From Spirochaetae bacterium HGW-Spirochaetae-1 (GTDB lineage Bacteria; Spirochaetota; UBA4802; UBA5550): DNA of 64,000 nt. The translations under genes were made by a program, and so were the position numbers. Every line of letters starts with the position of its first letter. Position 1 is the first letter of the stretch. Below are positions 54,733 through 64,000 of this stretch, piece after piece. The stretch lies in assembly GCA_002839375.1 (NCBI GenBank), contig PGXY01000005.1:124001-188000 (forward strand). Reading direction: 5' to 3'. The notes under the pieces were generated by a model. That model had not been told where the DNA came from. It saw only the letters and a program-made list of their open reading frames with translations, and made no database searches.

Positions 54733-55362
54733 TCAATTATAGGTGGCTGTCACGGACAATCCGCCGTAGAGGCCCGACATCTCATTGTCATTGCTCTTGC
54801 GTTTCATTGTGGTAAAGCGCCCGACGATGGCTACACCGACTCCCCAGTTATCACTGGCCCACCATTCCTTGCCGAAGGACATGCTCAGGCCCAGGCCGTA
54901 TTTGCCGCTGCTGGTGTTGTTATCAATTTCCATGGTTGATTTAACGATCCCCATCGATGCCGAGGCATATATATTCACGGGCATGAAGTAATAGGTAGCG
55001 CCGGCCCCGATCCCGATGGTGTTAACCCACGCCTTGTCAGTCGCATAAGATCCCCCACCGAGCTTTACACCGGCATCGGGCATGAAACAGGCGCTTATTT
55101 CGCCGAAGAGAATCAGGTTGCTCCACACGGTATTCCCGAGCTGGAGAACAATGTCGCCGCTGAAACCGGTAAACACCATGTCCTTCCCGGAGAGATAATC
55201 CTCGCAGGTAAATTTCTGATAACCGGCCCCCAACATGAACCGTGCCATGTAGCCGTCATGCACGCGGGGCTGGCTCGATTCCTCGTCCTGGGCGAAACAT
55301 TCTGCGGAAAGCAAAAGGACCAGAATTATAAGCGCCCCCTTGAATACAGGTTTTACTCTCAT
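54733..55362 (-). CDS. Outer-membrane beta-barrel protein, paralogue 1
   Basis: The ATG at 55362 follows AAAAGGTG; a GTG at 55374 is the only upstream alternative. The 209-residue product has a signal peptide and a series of short amphipathic strands (GYMARFMLGAGYQKF, NLILFGEISACF, IGAGATYYFMPVNIYASASMGI, GLSMSFGKEWWASDNWGVGVAIVG) ending TATYN. The pattern and terminal aromatic-containing strand suit an 8- or 10-strand barrel. It is paralogous to the next gene. Confidence 0.85.
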   Translation of the reverse strand: MRVKPVFKGALIILVLLLSAECFAQDEESSQPRVHDGYMARFMLGAGYQKFTCEDYLSGKDMVFTGFSGDIVLQLGNTVWSNLILFGEISACFMPDAGVKLGGGSYATDKAWVNTIGIGAGATYYFMPVNIYASASMGIVKSTMEIDNNTSSGKYGLGLSMSFGKEWWASDNWGVGVAIVGRFTTMKRKSNDNEMSGLYGGLSVTATYN

Positions 55363-55589
55363 ATGATTTTGCACCTTTTATATATTTATTATTATGAATA
55401 TTTTTCAGTCTGTCAGATAACTTTGATAACCGACGCGACAAGATCGCTGTAGAAAAAAACCGTGGTAGTCCGTATAGAAAATAAAGTCTTATTAGACCTG
55501 ACCTATTTCATAGACCAGCCTTACAGGATGCCGCTGAAAAGATCAATACAATTTTAGTCATTCTTTCTTTGTATCCGCTCTGCTCACTA

Positions 55590-55624
55590 TAAAAGAAAAG
55601 GAATAATGCGCCCATTATCCCTTT
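55590..55624 (-). terminator. Terminator of the upstream barrel gene
   Basis: On the minus strand AAAGGGATAATG (55624-55613) and CATTATTCCTTT (55608-55597) form a 12-bp stem with one G-U pair and a 4-nt loop, followed by TCTTTT. It ends the transcript of the gene at 55648. Confidence 0.7.
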
Positions 55625-55647
55625 CATAAAATGCAATGTATATGTGA

Positions 55648-56274
55648 TCAGTTATAGGTCGCGGAAAATGCCAACCCGATATATATATTCGACATCTTGT
55701 TGTCGACACCCTTGTCTTTCATTCTTGAATAATTGCCCACGAGTGCGAGTCCAAGACCCCAGTTTTCCGAGACCCACCATTCTTTGCCGATTGCTACATT
55801 AGTCCCGAACCCTAATTCGCTGCTGCCGCTGCTTCCACTCACCTCGAGTGTTGCCCGTGTTGCCCCAAGCGAAAGGGAAAGGAAAAAATTAGAGGCAAAA
55901 TAATAGGAAAGACCTCCACCAAATCCCACTACTGAAACTTGCGTATCATTCGTGTCGTAGGAACTGCCACCCAGCTTCAGAGTGGGATCTGTCATGACAC
56001 AGCTGCTCAGTTCCCCGAATAGAATCAGGTCGTTGATAACGGCATAGCCGATCTGCATGGTAAAATTTCCCGCAGCCCCGGTAAATTTCATATCAGAACC
56101 GGGCACAAAGTCTTCATAGGTCAGGCTCTGATAGCCGACGCCAAGTTGAAACCTGAGATAAAAACCGTCATGCATATTGGTTCCATCGGATTCCATATCC
56201 TGGGCAAAAACAGCGCTGAAGCTGCAAACAATGATAGCTACTAGAAAGAATTTAAGCAAAGAGCTCCTTTTCAT
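55648..56274 (-). CDS. Outer-membrane beta-barrel protein, paralogue 2
   Basis: A 208-residue exported protein with a cleaved-looking signal (ending AVFAQD). It aligns along its whole length with the 54733-55362 gene: HDGFYLRFQLGVGYQ, NDLILFGELSSCVM, KLGGSSY, GKEWWVSENWGLGLALVG and a shared FSATYN end. Separate terminator and promoter suggest each copy has its own control. GGAGG lies 8 nt before the ATG. The barrel's cargo, if any, is unknown. Confidence 0.88.
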   Translation of the reverse strand: MKRSSLLKFFLVAIIVCSFSAVFAQDMESDGTNMHDGFYLRFQLGVGYQSLTYEDFVPGSDMKFTGAAGNFTMQIGYAVINDLILFGELSSCVMTDPTLKLGGSSYDTNDTQVSVVGFGGGLSYYFASNFFLSLSLGATRATLEVSGSSGSSELGFGTNVAIGKEWWVSENWGLGLALVGNYSRMKDKGVDNKMSNIYIGLAFSATYN

Positions 56275-56408: not shown

Positions 56409-59400
56409 TCAGAACACCCAGAAAAAGCGCCGCTTCACCTCACCCTTGTATTCGGTCTGCTTGTACAGTCCCTTCAGGATGGAAAACTTTTTAAATCCCG
56501 TTTCCTCCTCAGTCTCATAATCCCAGAGGATGCCCCAGAGCATACCCCGGGCATGGTATTTCCTCTCGGGTTTTTTCACCTCGTTCCACAGGGTTCCCAG
56601 GAGCCACATGCGCCGGTCGCTCCAGTACCGGGCCTCGTTGTTCCGGTAATAGAGAAGTCCCAGCAGGCCCATATCAAAGTCGCCATCCGTGCCTTTGCTG
56701 AGGTAGGATAGACCCGCTATGCTGATAAATTTCCATTGGTCCTCCTCTCCCCGGTAATACCAGAGGGGAAACACACTGTTGCTCTTAATGACTCCATTGC
56801 GCTTTGCCGTCACGAGAAACGTGCCGAGATCGAATTCATAGTCGGGCCTGTTCTTGTAATTGGTGTAGTCCATGAGAAGTCCCAGGAGCAGTTCCGAGTG
56901 GGTCACTTCGGGCCTGGTACGATACTGACCCATGCCGAAAAGGAAATCATAGGTGTTCTCCTCGTTTCTTTTCACGTACTCATGGTCGAAGAGGTACAGC
57001 AGGTTCTGGCGGGACCCGTACTCGGACCTGCGCCAGTAGGTACCCAGGAGAAATGTTTCTTTCTCCCGGGGACTGCGGATGAACCAGCCCAGGAGGGGCG
57101 GAATCACGAGATGGTTCTTGTAACCGGGAACCCATACATAGAGGGGCAGAACCATGGAATAGTCAAGAACGCCTGTTCCGGAGCGCTGCCAGTCCGCCAG
57201 GCCGAGTATGTTCACGTGCCGCGCTCCGTTATCATTCCGATGATAGAACAGGGGAAAGAGGAGCGTTCGCCGGTAGTTTTCATTTTTGGAATAGGTATGG
57301 TCCAGGAGAAACAGGGTATTCCAGTGCACCTTTTCATTGTCGCTGTAGCGATAATACAGGGGAAGGACGGGAAACCAGAAACGGGAGTAATACTTTTCAA
57401 CATCTCCGATCTTCTGCTTCTCCCGGTCGATATACCAGAGGGGATTCCAGTGAACGCTCCGGGCATAAGACATGTCCTTCTCCTCACCCGTGATGGTGCG
57501 CTGGAAATACAGGGGCATTAACCAGTGTCGGCGGTTTGCCACAGGCACATATCCCGCTTCACCCTTCACAGACATATACTGGTCTTCATGAAAGGTCCCC
57601 AGGGAGCCCAGGCCCCAGCCCAGGTAGAGCGATGAATCTTTTTTTTCATTATAGCGGTTATGAATGAACGTCCCTGCCAGGGCCGTGATCCGCCGCATTT
57701 CATGGTCGCGCCTATACGAATAAACCGGCAGCAGCCAGGTATTCGCTTCTTCAGGCGACTGGTAGCCCCGCATGAGCCCATATAACAGCCTGTATGACGA
57801 CTCCCCGCTCTTTTTGTCCTTTTCCGTTTCGTAGAGTCCGAAAAGAATGCTGTTCTTTATCCTCTCGTCTTCCCGCTTGCGGTAATAGCCCATGAGGAAA
57901 AAGCGGCTCATACTGGACGTAATGTTTTTAGTATTTTTTTCATTACTTCCTTCGGAGCGCTGGTACGAATCACGATAGAGAAAGGGAAGGCCCACAAGCA
58001 TGGATTCCCTTTCTTCCAGGCCCGATTTGACCGTGGTAGCGGTGTTCCGTGAATAATAGTAGAAGGGGAAAAACCAGTTATATCCATGTTCCCTGGTTCC
58101 GGAAAGAACCGGTGATCCCGGAACGGTCTTTTGGGAAGAACCTTTAACCGCGACACGCGGCCTGTCATAGGAATAATACTTCTCCGTCGTAAAGGACATG
58201 AGGGGAAGGAGCGGAATCTTCAGCGTTGAGTATTCGCTCCCCGTACCGGCTGTTTTTTTATGATAGAACAGGGGATTCAGGCTGCGCCGGTACTTCAGCT
58301 TACCCGTGTCCTCTCCATAGATCGACCGGTGATAAAAGAGCGGGCTGATATAGCGGCGCGTTCTATCGCCATCCTTCAACGTCTCGCGGTACCACACAAG
58401 GGGCATGACGCGCCACCCGCTTCGCACCGGCGAGTCATACCAGTTCACCAGGGGCCAGAGTATGCTTTTTTCGCTTCGTTTCTCCGTATCATCATATTCA
58501 TCCCAGAAAAGATTCAGGAGATATGCCCGGGCATAGGACTGCCCCTGTCTCTGGCTGCCGTAAAAGGGAAAGACCACAAGATAGCGGAGATTGTCAATGC
58601 TGTTGTTGTAATACATAAAAAGGGGCGGCACGACATAAATACGGTCATCACTCGCCTGGTCCCAGGTCAGCCAGGAAAGCGGTATGAGACGGACATGCCT
58701 CTTCGTGTCGCCCTTTTCAATGGCGAACCAGCCGAAGAGCAATTTCATGCCCCAGAAGGACTCGCTGTTCTCCCGGTCAAAAGTCTTTTTCTTATGCAGG
58801 GCCGCTTTATTGTCATTCGTGTCGACATTGGTCTCCCCTGTCACGACATCATCATAAGCGGCGGCAGGGGCGTCCTTCGTTTTAAAGGGATTGTCAATGG
58901 CCACCCGTGTGGAAATGCTGAATACATTGTATAGCCAGGAAAAATCCATATCCAGGTACCACTTGCCATGGTACTTTGCCGGGAAGATCGAGGGATTGAA
59001 AGGCCCCATGGTCATGCTGCGCGAGAATCCCGTGGCATTGAGATGAATCGAGTGGAACTTGGTTTCGTAGTTAATGGACAGGGGAAGAATAAAAGAACCG
59101 CTGCTCTCCTTCAGCTTCCAGCTGTAATATACAGGCAGGAAGTGACGGTAATACCGGTCCTTTTCTTTATCCTTCCATGAATAAAAGGGCCAGGACCAGA
59201 TGGTTCGCGATTCCTTTGACCAGCCGTGATAATGGAAAAGACCTGCGCTCCAGCCGTCATCTTCAGTGTTTTCGCCGGACCTGAAATAAAAAGGGACAAA
59301 GGCACGATAGCCGTCGCTGCCCCCGTAAAAGAATAAGGGTATCAGCCAGAAACGCTCCAGTTGCCCCTCATCGTCGCGCTTCCAGTCGGCGAGCCAGAGA

Positions 59401-60872
59401 AGGTTCCGGTGCGTTTCATCATCGTCATTACGTCCGCTGAAGTACAGGGGGATGATGGGAACCCAGAGGTATTTCCAGAGCAGTGTATCTTCAGATCCTG
59501 TCATTTCCGACTGTTTCCGGGCATAGCCGCCCAGGGGCGAAAGGATAATCAACCTGTCGGTGTGAAGGTCGTCCTTTTTGGATTTATAGGTGCTGGAATA
59601 CCATTCCTTTTTTCGCCAGGACATGAAGAGAGGCGGCAGCACGTGATGATAGGCCCGGTCTTCCACTTTTGATTCGGTTCGACCGCTGAAATAAAGAGGC
59701 GCAAGCACATGACGATATGAGCTTTCCGCATAATCTGATTTTTTCCGGCCGCTGAAAAAAAGCGGCGGCAGAACATAACGGTAGGAACTGCTCCCATAAG
59801 AATCTTTCTCCCAGCCGCTGAGATAGAGCGGCGGAATTATATGACGGTATCCATCGTCGCCCCCCTTTCCGAAATACAGCGGCGCGGCCCAGAAACGTTT
59901 ATTGACATTCCCCAAGTCACTGCCCCAGTCAAGGAGCCACAGTACATTGTAGTGAGAGCTCTTATCTTCGTCTCTGCTGCAGTAAAAGAGGGGAAGCAGG
60001 GGGAACCAGAAAGACGAAGCGGTGATGTCGCTCTTACCGTCCTTATGATACTGCCTGTCCCGCACTGATCCCCATAGGAGGGAATAGGAGTGTTCCCGCA
60101 TTTTCAGATCATTGCGTATCAGCTGCCCGTCGCTTCCTCTTTCACCGTGGTAGGATACGACACCTTCCCAGGTCATGTACAGAGGTGGCAGGATATGCCG
60201 GAATGACCCGCCATGGTTCTGTTTGCCGCTCATGTATAGCGGCGGCACGATATGGAGATAGGAATCCTGATCCAGACCCCGGTCGCGGGACCAGAACAAC
60301 AGCGGCATGAGCCAGAAGCGATCCAGGGTCTCATCACCGTTTTTCTTCCGCCACGAATAATCGAGCAGGCCGAGATAATTGCGGTGCCCGCCTTCCGGTC
60401 CCACATAGTGCCAGGTGAGCGGGACCAGGGGTGCCCACCAGGTGACCCTGCGGCGGACTTCTCCGCCTTCCCGCCATTCATGTATCACCGTTCCGTTCAG
60501 GGGTGTGATCCATTTTGTTTCAGGACCGTTTGTATGCTGATAAAGAAGGGGGGTGATATATCTTCTGCGGTTGTCAATTTTGCTGTGGATAGAATAATAA
60601 AAGGGGAAGAACCGGAACGACCGGTATCGCGGATAATCGGTCTTTCTGAAAAACCACAGGATCATGAGAGAATCATGGCCCTCCCATTCTTCCTTTTCAA
60701 CAAAGAAGGCGTTGATTGCGAACTTCTCCTCTTTTTCGCTGCCATAAATGCGGTGATCTTCTTCAAAGAGATCATCCCAGTCCTTTTTTTGCTCCTGGGC
60801 GGCCAGTCTCTGTACCGAGACGAGTGTGAAGAGTGAGCAGACAAGCAGACTCAGGCATAATATCCGTTTCAT
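56409..60872 (-). CDS. Giant exported aromatic repeat protein, 1487 aa
   Basis: A signal peptide (MKRILCLSLLVCSLFTLVS) is followed by ~1450 residues without conserved domains. About twenty copies of a proline-aromatic core (PPLYMSG, PLFFSG, PLYFSG, PLFYHR and similar) recur every 20-40 residues, often preceded by RH(I/V)LP or RFW and followed by charged, Asp/Lys/Ser-rich loops. Trp and Tyr are abundant. Alternating hydrophobic strands with polar loops suggest stacked beta-hairpins or a large outer-membrane or surface structure. The C-terminus ends in RRFFWVF, an aromatic-rich tail possibly related to barrel insertion. No family is recognised. Confidence 0.85.
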   Translation of the reverse strand: MKRILCLSLLVCSLFTLVSVQRLAAQEQKKDWDDLFEEDHRIYGSEKEEKFAINAFFVEKEEWEGHDSLMILWFFRKTDYPRYRSFRFFPFYYSIHSKIDNRRRYITPLLYQHTNGPETKWITPLNGTVIHEWREGGEVRRRVTWWAPLVPLTWHYVGPEGGHRNYLGLLDYSWRKKNGDETLDRFWLMPLLFWSRDRGLDQDSYLHIVPPLYMSGKQNHGGSFRHILPPLYMTWEGVVSYHGERGSDGQLIRNDLKMREHSYSLLWGSVRDRQYHKDGKSDITASSFWFPLLPLFYCSRDEDKSSHYNVLWLLDWGSDLGNVNKRFWAAPLYFGKGGDDGYRHIIPPLYLSGWEKDSYGSSSYRYVLPPLFFSGRKKSDYAESSYRHVLAPLYFSGRTESKVEDRAYHHVLPPLFMSWRKKEWYSSTYKSKKDDLHTDRLIILSPLGGYARKQSEMTGSEDTLLWKYLWVPIIPLYFSGRNDDDETHRNLLWLADWKRDDEGQLERFWLIPLFFYGGSDGYRAFVPFYFRSGENTEDDGWSAGLFHYHGWSKESRTIWSWPFYSWKDKEKDRYYRHFLPVYYSWKLKESSGSFILPLSINYETKFHSIHLNATGFSRSMTMGPFNPSIFPAKYHGKWYLDMDFSWLYNVFSISTRVAIDNPFKTKDAPAAAYDDVVTGETNVDTNDNKAALHKKKTFDRENSESFWGMKLLFGWFAIEKGDTKRHVRLIPLSWLTWDQASDDRIYVVPPLFMYYNNSIDNLRYLVVFPFYGSQRQGQSYARAYLLNLFWDEYDDTEKRSEKSILWPLVNWYDSPVRSGWRVMPLVWYRETLKDGDRTRRYISPLFYHRSIYGEDTGKLKYRRSLNPLFYHKKTAGTGSEYSTLKIPLLPLMSFTTEKYYSYDRPRVAVKGSSQKTVPGSPVLSGTREHGYNWFFPFYYYSRNTATTVKSGLEERESMLVGLPFLYRDSYQRSEGSNEKNTKNITSSMSRFFLMGYYRKREDERIKNSILFGLYETEKDKKSGESSYRLLYGLMRGYQSPEEANTWLLPVYSYRRDHEMRRITALAGTFIHNRYNEKKDSSLYLGWGLGSLGTFHEDQYMSVKGEAGYVPVANRRHWLMPLYFQRTITGEEKDMSYARSVHWNPLWYIDREKQKIGDVEKYYSRFWFPVLPLYYRYSDNEKVHWNTLFLLDHTYSKNENYRRTLLFPLFYHRNDNGARHVNILGLADWQRSGTGVLDYSMVLPLYVWVPGYKNHLVIPPLLGWFIRSPREKETFLLGTYWRRSEYGSRQNLLYLFDHEYVKRNEENTYDFLFGMGQYRTRPEVTHSELLLGLLMDYTNYKNRPDYEFDLGTFLVTAKRNGVIKSNSVFPLWYYRGEEDQWKFISIAGLSYLSKGTDGDFDMGLLGLLYYRNNEARYWSDRRMWLLGTLWNEVKKPERKYHARGMLWGILWDYETEEETGFKKFSILKGLYKQTEYKGEVKRRFFWVF

Positions 60873-60899
60873 GGTGACAGTATTCTTCCTTTTTTTATT

Positions 60900-60955
60900 T
60901 TGACAATCAGTGATGACCTGGATATACTATATCAGTCCTTTGCCGGATATATCAA
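60900..60955. promoter_or_regulatory. Overlapping divergent promoters
   Basis: Plus strand: TTGACA (60900-60905), 17 bp, TATACT (60923-60928). Minus strand: TTGATA (60955-60950), 18 bp, TATAGT (60931-60926). The two -10 hexamers overlap in the palindrome TATACTATA. The plus promoter drives the sensor pair; the minus promoter drives the giant repeat protein with a ~47-nt leader. Confidence 0.6.
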
Positions 60956-60993
60956 GCATTAGAGACTGGTTAGCCGAACTGAATATAATCACC

Positions 60994-63159
60994 GTGAAGA
61001 TACAGGGAAAAGTAAAGAAAAAAATATTTACATACCGGGGTATACGTATATTCATACCAAAATCCGGTTTTCATTCATATCTATTTATTAATATAAACAA
61101 ATTTATTTTATCTGTTAAAAAAATTAATCGTATTCCCATATCCATCCATATCATCCGATATGCGCTCCTTTGCCTCACAGTGCTTCCTGTCCTGATCGTT
61201 CCGGCATGCTCACCCGAAAACAACGGGGAGTCAAAACCCACAGCAGTAAGGGGCGTATTGGATATCTCCCCATGGAATTTCACTAAAAAAGGAACCATTA
61301 AGCTCGACGGGGAATGGGAGTTTTACAGAAACCGTTTCATCGACCCCCTGATGAAACCGGTGCCGGGGTCCCTGGAGGTACCCTCATATATAACCGTTCC
61401 TTCACGGTGGCCGGAACACACCGTCGACGGCCGCCCCATTACATCCACGGGGTATGGCACCTACCGGCTTAAAATACTGATCCCCCGGGACGCGCCGCCC
61501 CTTTCACTGAAATTCAGAAGCATCCATACGGCATACCGGGCCTACATTAACGGCCGGCTCATTTCTGCCAGGGGGATCGCCGCCGAAACCGCCGCCGCAT
61601 CACGGGCTGAAAATGTCTACTGCATCGCAGACCTCATAAACAATGAACCGGTCCTGGACCTGGTAATCCATGTATCAAATTACAGCCATAAGAATGGCGG
61701 CATTTTCATTTCCCAGTTGCTGGGAACGGAAGAGGAAATACACCGCGACAACGATATTCTCCTGGCGATCAACTTTTTTCTTTTCGGCAGCATAATCATC
61801 ATAGGCTTTTACTATCTTCTTCTTTTCCTTCTCCACCGGGAAGACGTGGCATTTCTTTTTTTCTGCCTGTTCTGTATTCTCATCGCCATACGGATTCTGG
61901 TTATGGGGAACGTGGATTATACCAACAGGTTTATAACTTTTTCCTGGGACGTTATCTATCACATCGCCATCATAACCTTTTACCTTGCCCTTCCCGTCTT
62001 CAGCATATACCTGTCCCTGCTGTATCCACGGGAATTCCACCGGCCGGTATTGTATGTCATTATAGCCGTGGGCTCCCTCTTCAGCCTCATGGCTCCTTTC
62101 TGCAACAGTCTAATCCTGTCCTGGCTGGTTCCCGTCTATGATTTCTTTGTCATTGCCTGTTCTTTTTACATGACATCCGTCATAATACTCGCTCTTAAGC
62201 GGAAAAGACAGGGATCTCTTATATTCTTTTCCGGATACCTGATCATCCTGCTCACTATCATCAACGACATTCTCTATGACAATGCGTTCATCAAAACGGG
62301 CTTCCTGTCACCTTTCGGCCTTTTTATCTTCATTCTATTCCAGACCATACTGCTGTCGCAGCGTTTCAAATGGTCTTTCCTGTCCCTCGAGGCCATGACA
62401 AAAGAATTAAAAAATAATAATGATCATCTTCTCAAGGTGCTCATCAATCTCAGGGGAACCCAGGAACTGCTTATCAGGCAGGAGAAGAAGGCCGTTGTGG
62501 GCAACCTGGCTTCTGGCCTGGCCCATGAGATCAAAAATCAGCTCCATTCGCTGTCTGTCCTGGAATTCATGGATGATAAACTCAATCACGAGGACCGCGA
62601 ATATATACGCTATATTCTTGAAAGCCGTGACCGTATCAGCAGCATGGTGGATGAGGTCAGGGCCCTGGGAAAAGAGGAGGAAACCTCGTATACTTTTACG
62701 CCGGTGCCCCTGTCCCGCATTCTTAAAGAGACCCTGGTGCTCATTAAAATTGATCCCGATGTTAAAAACCGGCATATCATGATAGCAGAGCACTTTTCCG
62801 GTGAGGTCATGGCCGATAAAAACAAGATCATCCAGGTCCTCTTGAATCTTGTGAGAAACGCCGCCCACGCCTTAGAAAACAGAGAAAAGGGAATGATCAC
62901 CATCCGCACGGACAAGCTTGAGGCAATGGCCGTTATCCATATAACGGATAACGGAAGGGGAATTAGCCCGGAGATACTGGATACGATCTGGGAGCCCTTC
63001 TTTACCACAAAGGGCGAGGAAGGGACCGGCCTGGGACTGCATATATGCCGGAGGATCGTGGAAGGACATGGCGGCACAATCGGCTGTGAATCGGTCAGGG
63101 GAGAAGGCACCACCTTCACTTTCTCGCTCCCCCTCGCCGATGGGAAAGAAAAGAGATGA
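60994..63159 (+). CDS. 7TMR-DISM sensor histidine kinase
   Basis: Domain order: a signal helix ending in IVPACSPE (lipoprotein-type), an extracytoplasmic beta domain (DGEWEFYRNRF, GYGTYRLKI, YRAYINGR, HVSNYSHKNGG), seven helices, then HisKA (GLAHEIKNQ, phospho-His) and HATPase (NLVRNAAHAL, DNGRGIS, GTGLGLH). No receiver is fused. The start is unsure: the GTG at 60910 and ATG at 60913 lie between the promoter hexamers, upstream of the expected transcript start near 60935, so they are rejected. GTG 60994 is a tentative choice without a clear ribosome site. Its end overlaps the next sensor gene by ATGA. Confidence 0.8.
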   Translation: MKIQGKVKKKIFTYRGIRIFIPKSGFHSYLFININKFILSVKKINRIPISIHIIRYALLCLTVLPVLIVPACSPENNGESKPTAVRGVLDISPWNFTKKGTIKLDGEWEFYRNRFIDPLMKPVPGSLEVPSYITVPSRWPEHTVDGRPITSTGYGTYRLKILIPRDAPPLSLKFRSIHTAYRAYINGRLISARGIAAETAAASRAENVYCIADLINNEPVLDLVIHVSNYSHKNGGIFISQLLGTEEEIHRDNDILLAINFFLFGSIIIIGFYYLLLFLLHREDVAFLFFCLFCILIAIRILVMGNVDYTNRFITFSWDVIYHIAIITFYLALPVFSIYLSLLYPREFHRPVLYVIIAVGSLFSLMAPFCNSLILSWLVPVYDFFVIACSFYMTSVIILALKRKRQGSLIFFSGYLIILLTIINDILYDNAFIKTGFLSPFGLFIFILFQTILLSQRFKWSFLSLEAMTKELKNNNDHLLKVLINLRGTQELLIRQEKKAVVGNLASGLAHEIKNQLHSLSVLEFMDDKLNHEDREYIRYILESRDRISSMVDEVRALGKEEETSYTFTPVPLSRILKETLVLIKIDPDVKNRHIMIAEHFSGEVMADKNKIIQVLLNLVRNAAHALENREKGMITIRTDKLEAMAVIHITDNGRGISPEILDTIWEPFFTTKGEEGTGLGLHICRRIVEGHGGTIGCESVRGEGTTFTFSLPLADGKEKR

Positions 63160-64000
63160 CGGACAGCATAAAAATATCATTCCTTCGCAGAAGTCTCCTT
63201 ATCCTGGCCGCATCCATCACGGCGGCACTGGTGGCGATGTCCTGCACCGATACGGGCGCCGGGCCCGGGGCCGTCCGGGGAGTCATGGACCTGAGATCAT
63301 GGGACCCGTCAGTCGATGAGCCCCAGTCCCTCGCGGGGGAATGGGAGTTCTACTGGGGGCATTTCCTTTCTGAAGCTGAAATGACGCAGAAAACAATACC
63401 TGTTGCCATGGAGTATGTGAAGGTACCCCACATCTGGACGGGAACATCCTTCCGGGGCACGAGCCTTCCCGGAACGGGTTACGGCAGCTACCGGCTCAAG
63501 GTGCTCCTGAAAGACACGGGCGGCAAAGACATATCATCCTCCTGTCCGGATCGGAAACAGCTTGCACTTAAAATTTTCGATTCGGCATCGGCCTACACTC
63601 TTTACCTGGACAGGAAAAAAATCGCATCAAACGGCGTCGCGGCGACCTCTGAAGAGAATGCCGTTCCCCAGGAAAAACCCGTTATTGCCCGCTTTCTTCC
63701 ATCATCGCCATTCTTTTATATTACCGTTCATGTCTCAAATTATCATCACCGCAACGGAGGCCTGTGGAAAGAAATACAGATAGGGTCAAATAACAATATA
63801 AGCTCACTGCGCAGGCATAAACTGGCCTTTCAGTTATTTCTCGCGGGAAGCCTGATCATTATCGCCTCTAATTATCTGATCATGTATCTCCTGGGGAAAA
63901 AGGAAAGAGGCTATCTCTATTTCAGCATTTTTACCCTGCTCATCGCCTTCCGGAACCTGGTCATAGACGAAAAATTTCTCATGACCCTGTTTCCTTCTCT
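63156..64000 (+). CDS. 7TMR-DISM sensor protein, 5' part
   Basis: The gene runs off the right edge. It begins with an ATGA overlap at 63156. The N-terminus has a signal and lipoprotein site (ALVAMSC). The extracytoplasmic domain resembles those of the kinases at 29.8 and 61 kb (RGVMDLRSWD, AGEWEFYWGHFL, GYGSYRLKVLL, HVSNYHHRNGGLW), and the first membrane helix (LFLAGSLIIIASNYLIMYLL) begins at about residue 227. The output domain is not visible. Coupling with the preceding kinase suggests a two-sensor unit. Confidence 0.85.
   Translation, partial: MTDSIKISFLRRSLLILAASITAALVAMSCTDTGAGPGAVRGVMDLRSWDPSVDEPQSLAGEWEFYWGHFLSEAEMTQKTIPVAMEYVKVPHIWTGTSFRGTSLPGTGYGSYRLKVLLKDTGGKDISSSCPDRKQLALKIFDSASAYTLYLDRKKIASNGVAATSEENAVPQEKPVIARFLPSSPFFYITVHVSNYHHRNGGLWKEIQIGSNNNISSLRRHKLAFQLFLAGSLIIIASNYLIMYLLGKKERGYLYFSIFTLLIAFRNLVIDEKFLMTLFPS

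Follow-up and report, generated by a model that had tools for sequence, protein, structure and literature searches.

A putative bidirectional promoter with a shared -10 region between a giant LA_1737 family gene and two sensor kinase genes of an uncultured spirochaete

Results

The 287-bp intergenic region between a giant gene on the minus strand and a divergent kinase open reading frame on the plus strand contains what is probably an ordinary sigma-70-type bidirectional promoter. Both directions would be read from one shared sequence, TATACTATA, with graded competition at high promoter strength; judging from the sequence, we give this reading a probability of roughly 0.65. The region lies in a 64,000-nt stretch (hereafter the window) of PGXY01000005.1, positions 124,001-188,000, a 375-kb contig of a 5.2-Mb genome, and coordinates below are those of the window. 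The promoter that would face the kinase pair consists of a perfect -35 element on the plus strand, TTGACA (6/6; 60900-60905), preceded immediately by a T-rich stretch, and, after a 17-nt spacer, the -10 element TATACT (5/6; 60923-60928), with a predicted transcription start site (TSS) at about 60935. The promoter that would face the giant gene, on the minus strand, has the -35 element TTGATA (5/6; 60955-60950) and the -10 element TATAGT (5/6; 60931-60926), with a predicted TSS at about 60919; its 18-nt spacer ends in TGA, placing an extended -10 TG one base ahead of the -10. The two opposed promoters sharing a palindromic -10 that the first-pass annotation had proposed were both found at their exact positions, matching the consensus in 11/12 (plus) and 10/12 (minus) bases over both hexamers. 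The nine bases of TATACTATA at 60923-60931 are common to both -10 elements, and the two hexamers overlap at 60926-60928. Both lie inside a 13-bp odd palindrome, GATATACTATATC (60921-60933), made up of GATATA and TATATC around an unpaired central C. The minus-strand leader of the giant gene, from the inferred TSS, would be 47 nt long (60873-60919) and carries a Shine-Dalgarno-like stretch, AAAGGAAG. Two alternative candidates are present, TAGAGA-N18-TATAAT on the plus strand (60960-60989; 10/12, with a perfect -10 at 60984-60989) and TTAACA-N17-TATATT on the minus strand (61118-61090; 10/12), and the -10 boxes of both are separate from the shared TATACTATA. Polymerases bound at 60926 could be hindered by others at these candidates, either through their footprint or through read-through.

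We compared the site with shuffled and reversed sequence. An overlapping pair with a summed match of at least 21/24 appeared in 5 of 4000 dinucleotide shuffles of the intergenic region, which is promoter-rich, having four candidates of at least 10/12 against 0.37 expected. Over the 375-kb contig, two overlapping pairs reached at least 21/24 (0.225 expected), and 33 pairs reached at least 9/12 on each side (about 16 expected). Promoter-like sites of at least 10/12 on the contig numbered 95 in 89 kb of noncoding and 74 in 286 kb of coding DNA, an enrichment that is partly one of composition because intergenic DNA is AT-rich; 5' of open reading frames, 41 such sites lay on the sense side versus 25. 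The strict two-way pattern has a single occurrence in the 5.2-Mb genome. Among 43 other genomes of relatives it was found in two (G003 and G019), once in each and adjoining other genes than here, and the reversed controls of all 44 genomes gave no match. The half pattern TTGAYA-N16-18-TATANTATA occurred eight times in the genome, the present site accounting for two of them, one per strand, and was absent from the reversed control of the genome. A search of the intergenic region for structured RNA returned nothing above the family cut-off, the matches being two sub-threshold eukaryotic families.

The primary sigma factor of the host has the standard recognition regions that a sigma-70 promoter depends on. 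RpoD (G000:C2:526929-527639) scored 404.7 bits against a family cut-off of 354 and, when aligned with SigA/RpoD of solved structures, retains the region 2.4 and 4.2 stretches, including FSTYATWWIRQAITRAI. Since RpoD keeps the standard helices that read the -10 and -35, the promoter elements should be readable. In Leptospira interrogans, a distant spirochaete relative, mapped start sites gave no clear sigma-70 motif (PMC5243855).

The giant gene (56409-60872, minus strand) encodes a 1487-aa LA_1737 family protein, with a C-terminal domain matching NCBIfam NF047486 (residues 1339-1483; 83.6 bits, cut-off 60), a signal-peptide-like N terminus and no Pfam match. The protein has repeats of aromatic/Pro-rich strands and was predicted to be mostly beta at low confidence, the mean pLDDT of the N-terminal 600 residues being 45. 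A first scan of a set of genome contigs with the single giant protein as query gave no match; of 59 spirochaete genomes searched, 20 have a homologue, the source genome among them. The literature on LA_1737 yielded nothing relevant. On the same strand, 3' of the giant gene, are two paralogous outer-membrane beta-barrel-like proteins that are 44% identical (54733-56274).

On the other side, the first 7TMR-DISM histidine kinase (about 61108 to 63159, plus strand) contains 7TMR-DISM_7TM (PF07695), HisKA (PF00512) and HATPase_c (PF02518) domains, and a lipobox-like ...LIVPAC with its Cys codon at 61207. The second 7TMR-DISM kinase (63156-64000, plus strand, continuing to L052:11220; 687 aa in total) starts within an ATGA that also contains the stop codon of the first, and the same domains were recovered in it, HisKA slightly below its cut-off. 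The literature on 7TMR-DISM proteins in spirochaetes likewise held nothing relevant. We agree with the first-pass annotation that the kinase does not start at the GTG/ATG at 60910/60913, where its open reading frame opens. As far as about 61120 the overall codon score of this frame is negative, the homology begins around 61108-61165, and all homologue alignments but one start at residue 67 or later; the exception (L034) aligns from residue 32 and reads through stops in the homologue. The homologues begin roughly 20-30 residues ahead of a lipobox-type Cys, yet no in-frame ATG, GTG or TTG occurs between GTG 60994 and GTG 61180 (60997-61179), where the homologues start. We rejected ATG 61160, which is out of frame and meets a stop after 11 codons. 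GTG 60994 and TTG 60940 were also rejected; they are in frame but have no Shine-Dalgarno sequence and a negative coding score, and would put a leader peptide of at least 71 residues ahead of the lipobox Cys. The gene may begin with a rare ATT, ATA or ATC codon or may have lost its start codon, or the assembly or sequence may be in error.

We analyzed the conservation of the arrangement in genomes outside the source genus. The kinase pair adjoined the giant gene in none of 17 loci fetched around giant-gene homologues. At 25 loci from a set of genome contigs, partly from the same genomes as the 17, the upstream neighbours differed in kind and orientation, and an overlapping promoter pair lay 5' of the homologue at one of them (L077; 10/12 and 9/12). 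In the source genome itself, sensor kinases of the 7TMR-DISM type are greatly expanded, with 104 candidates at first look and 21 matches among the 20 of these that were scored; because these kinases are so numerous, adjacency to one pair of them is weak evidence of a link with the giant gene.

Discussion

By its predicted elements, the arrangement belongs to a known and widespread class, the bacterial bidirectional promoters, which are described as common in prokaryotes. In E. coli they give rise to 19% of detected RNAs, and divergent genes flank 24% of them (PMC12825309, PMC10268837). What marks the class is that opposite-strand -10 elements overlap or are shared, and the putative -10 elements here do so. 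As in the promoters described by Warman, Grainger and colleagues (PMC12825309, PMC10268837), the opposing -10 elements sit on a shared pseudo-symmetrical sequence, the predicted TSSs would fall 10-23 bp apart, divergent protein genes lie on either side, and polymerase could engage in either orientation. The published TSS spacings range from 10 to 23 bp, with 18 bp the commonest, followed by 10 and 23 bp (PMC12825309, PMC10268837). The distance of 16 bp between our two predicted TSSs (60935 and 60919) is within that range and off its preferred values; weaker 4/6 hexamers in the same palindrome, TAGTAT or TACTAT, would give an 18-bp spacing. With 16 bp instead of 18 bp, -7 and -11 are without the reciprocal pairing that marks the 18-bp subclass, not the class as a whole, and the best hexamers pair -7 of the plus strand with -9 of the minus strand. 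The site further differs from the published promoters (PMC12825309, PMC10268837) in its near-consensus -35 on both sides, in that neither side has a thymine at -18, and in its host, an uncultured spirochaete. It also resembles known overlapping divergent promoter pairs in that two protein genes flank the overlap; in some of those pairs (acrR, soxR) one gene encodes a regulator of the pair, whereas here one side is a pair of sensor kinases that is not known to be linked with the gene opposite.

What the analysis shows is a pair of overlapping elements of non-random quality, together with a standard RpoD; transcription, its start sites and competition we infer as follows. Housekeeping RNA polymerase would bind the shared TATACTATA either way round, steered by the near-consensus -35 on each side. 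In the minus orientation it would start at about 60919 and enter the leader of the LA_1737 family gene, and in the plus orientation it would start at about 60935 and enter the leader of the two-kinase operon. There would be room for one polymerase at a time, so that the two directions might compete in a graded manner at high promoter strength, while both would be expressed at ordinary strength. Counting against this reading are the lack of a recognisable start codon for the kinase gene 3' of the plus TSS, the predicted TSS distance of 16 bp, and the mapped Leptospira start sites with their lack of a clear sigma-70 motif. In an unlikely, though not negligible, alternative, only one overlapping promoter is used and the plus gene is transcribed mainly from the TATAAT at 60984-60989 (TSS about 60996), the overlap then being of little consequence for the kinases. 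That candidate, at 60960-60989, has 10/12 matches with a perfect -10 and would give a shorter leader up to the start of kinase homology, but its -35 is weak (TAGAGA, 4/6) compared with the perfect TTGACA at 60900.

The first-pass annotation had also reasoned that polymerase could occupy one direction at a time and that expression of the surface-type protein and the two sensors may be mutually exclusive. The part on occupancy should hold, because the geometry of one shared -10 implies that two polymerases would exclude each other, as has been stated for the class (PMC12825309). The part on expression is not supported. All five E. coli bidirectional promoters tested made both RNAs, with basal activity too low for competition, and loss of one direction gave no rise in the other; competition was seen once the -35 was improved or an activator was bound, so that one direction was strong (PMC12825309). 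Since both -35 boxes are near consensus here, graded competition between the two directions is a fair prediction and plausible. An on/off switch between the surface-type protein and the sensors is not supported. A selected switch of this kind would draw on the shared -10, the two near-consensus -35 boxes and the competition of strong bidirectional promoters (PMC12825309), but the wild-type published cases express both RNAs without competing (PMC12825309) and each gene has a second promoter candidate. In addition, neither the pairing of giant gene and kinases nor the overlapping promoters are kept in the relatives compared, which argues against selection, and we consider a selected switch distinctly improbable. 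More speculative still, and highly improbable in our estimate, is a promoter strong in both directions whose competition makes the cell-surface protein and the two kinases anticorrelated in single cells, yielding two states without a dedicated regulator. We also regard it as improbable that a regulator uses the palindrome as its operator, to block or activate one direction, with the promoter likeness secondary. The 13-bp GATATACTATATC would suit such a regulator, as would an imperfect direct repeat of 21 nt in the intergenic region, spaced at 25 bp. However, an equally long palindrome arose in 17% of intergenic shuffles and is by itself non-significant, GATATACTATATC occurs at only one other place in the genome, where the reversed control likewise gave one, and such a repeat arose in 22% of the shuffles (1.4% when 60880-60980 only was shuffled). 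Both were rejected as operators, being within chance across the intergenic region.

If the site is, as we favour, an ordinary bidirectional promoter with graded competition at high strength, it would provide a clean sequence-level example with two near-consensus -35 boxes in an uncultured spirochaete, and a useful natural test of polymerase competition coupling two genes. On its own, it leaves the general picture of bidirectional promoters unchanged. Another genome of the family has a two-way promoter that is cleaner still (L126; G003:C22:44964-45018), with a perfect TTGACA in both directions, just 5' of an open reading frame with Ig-like repeat character.
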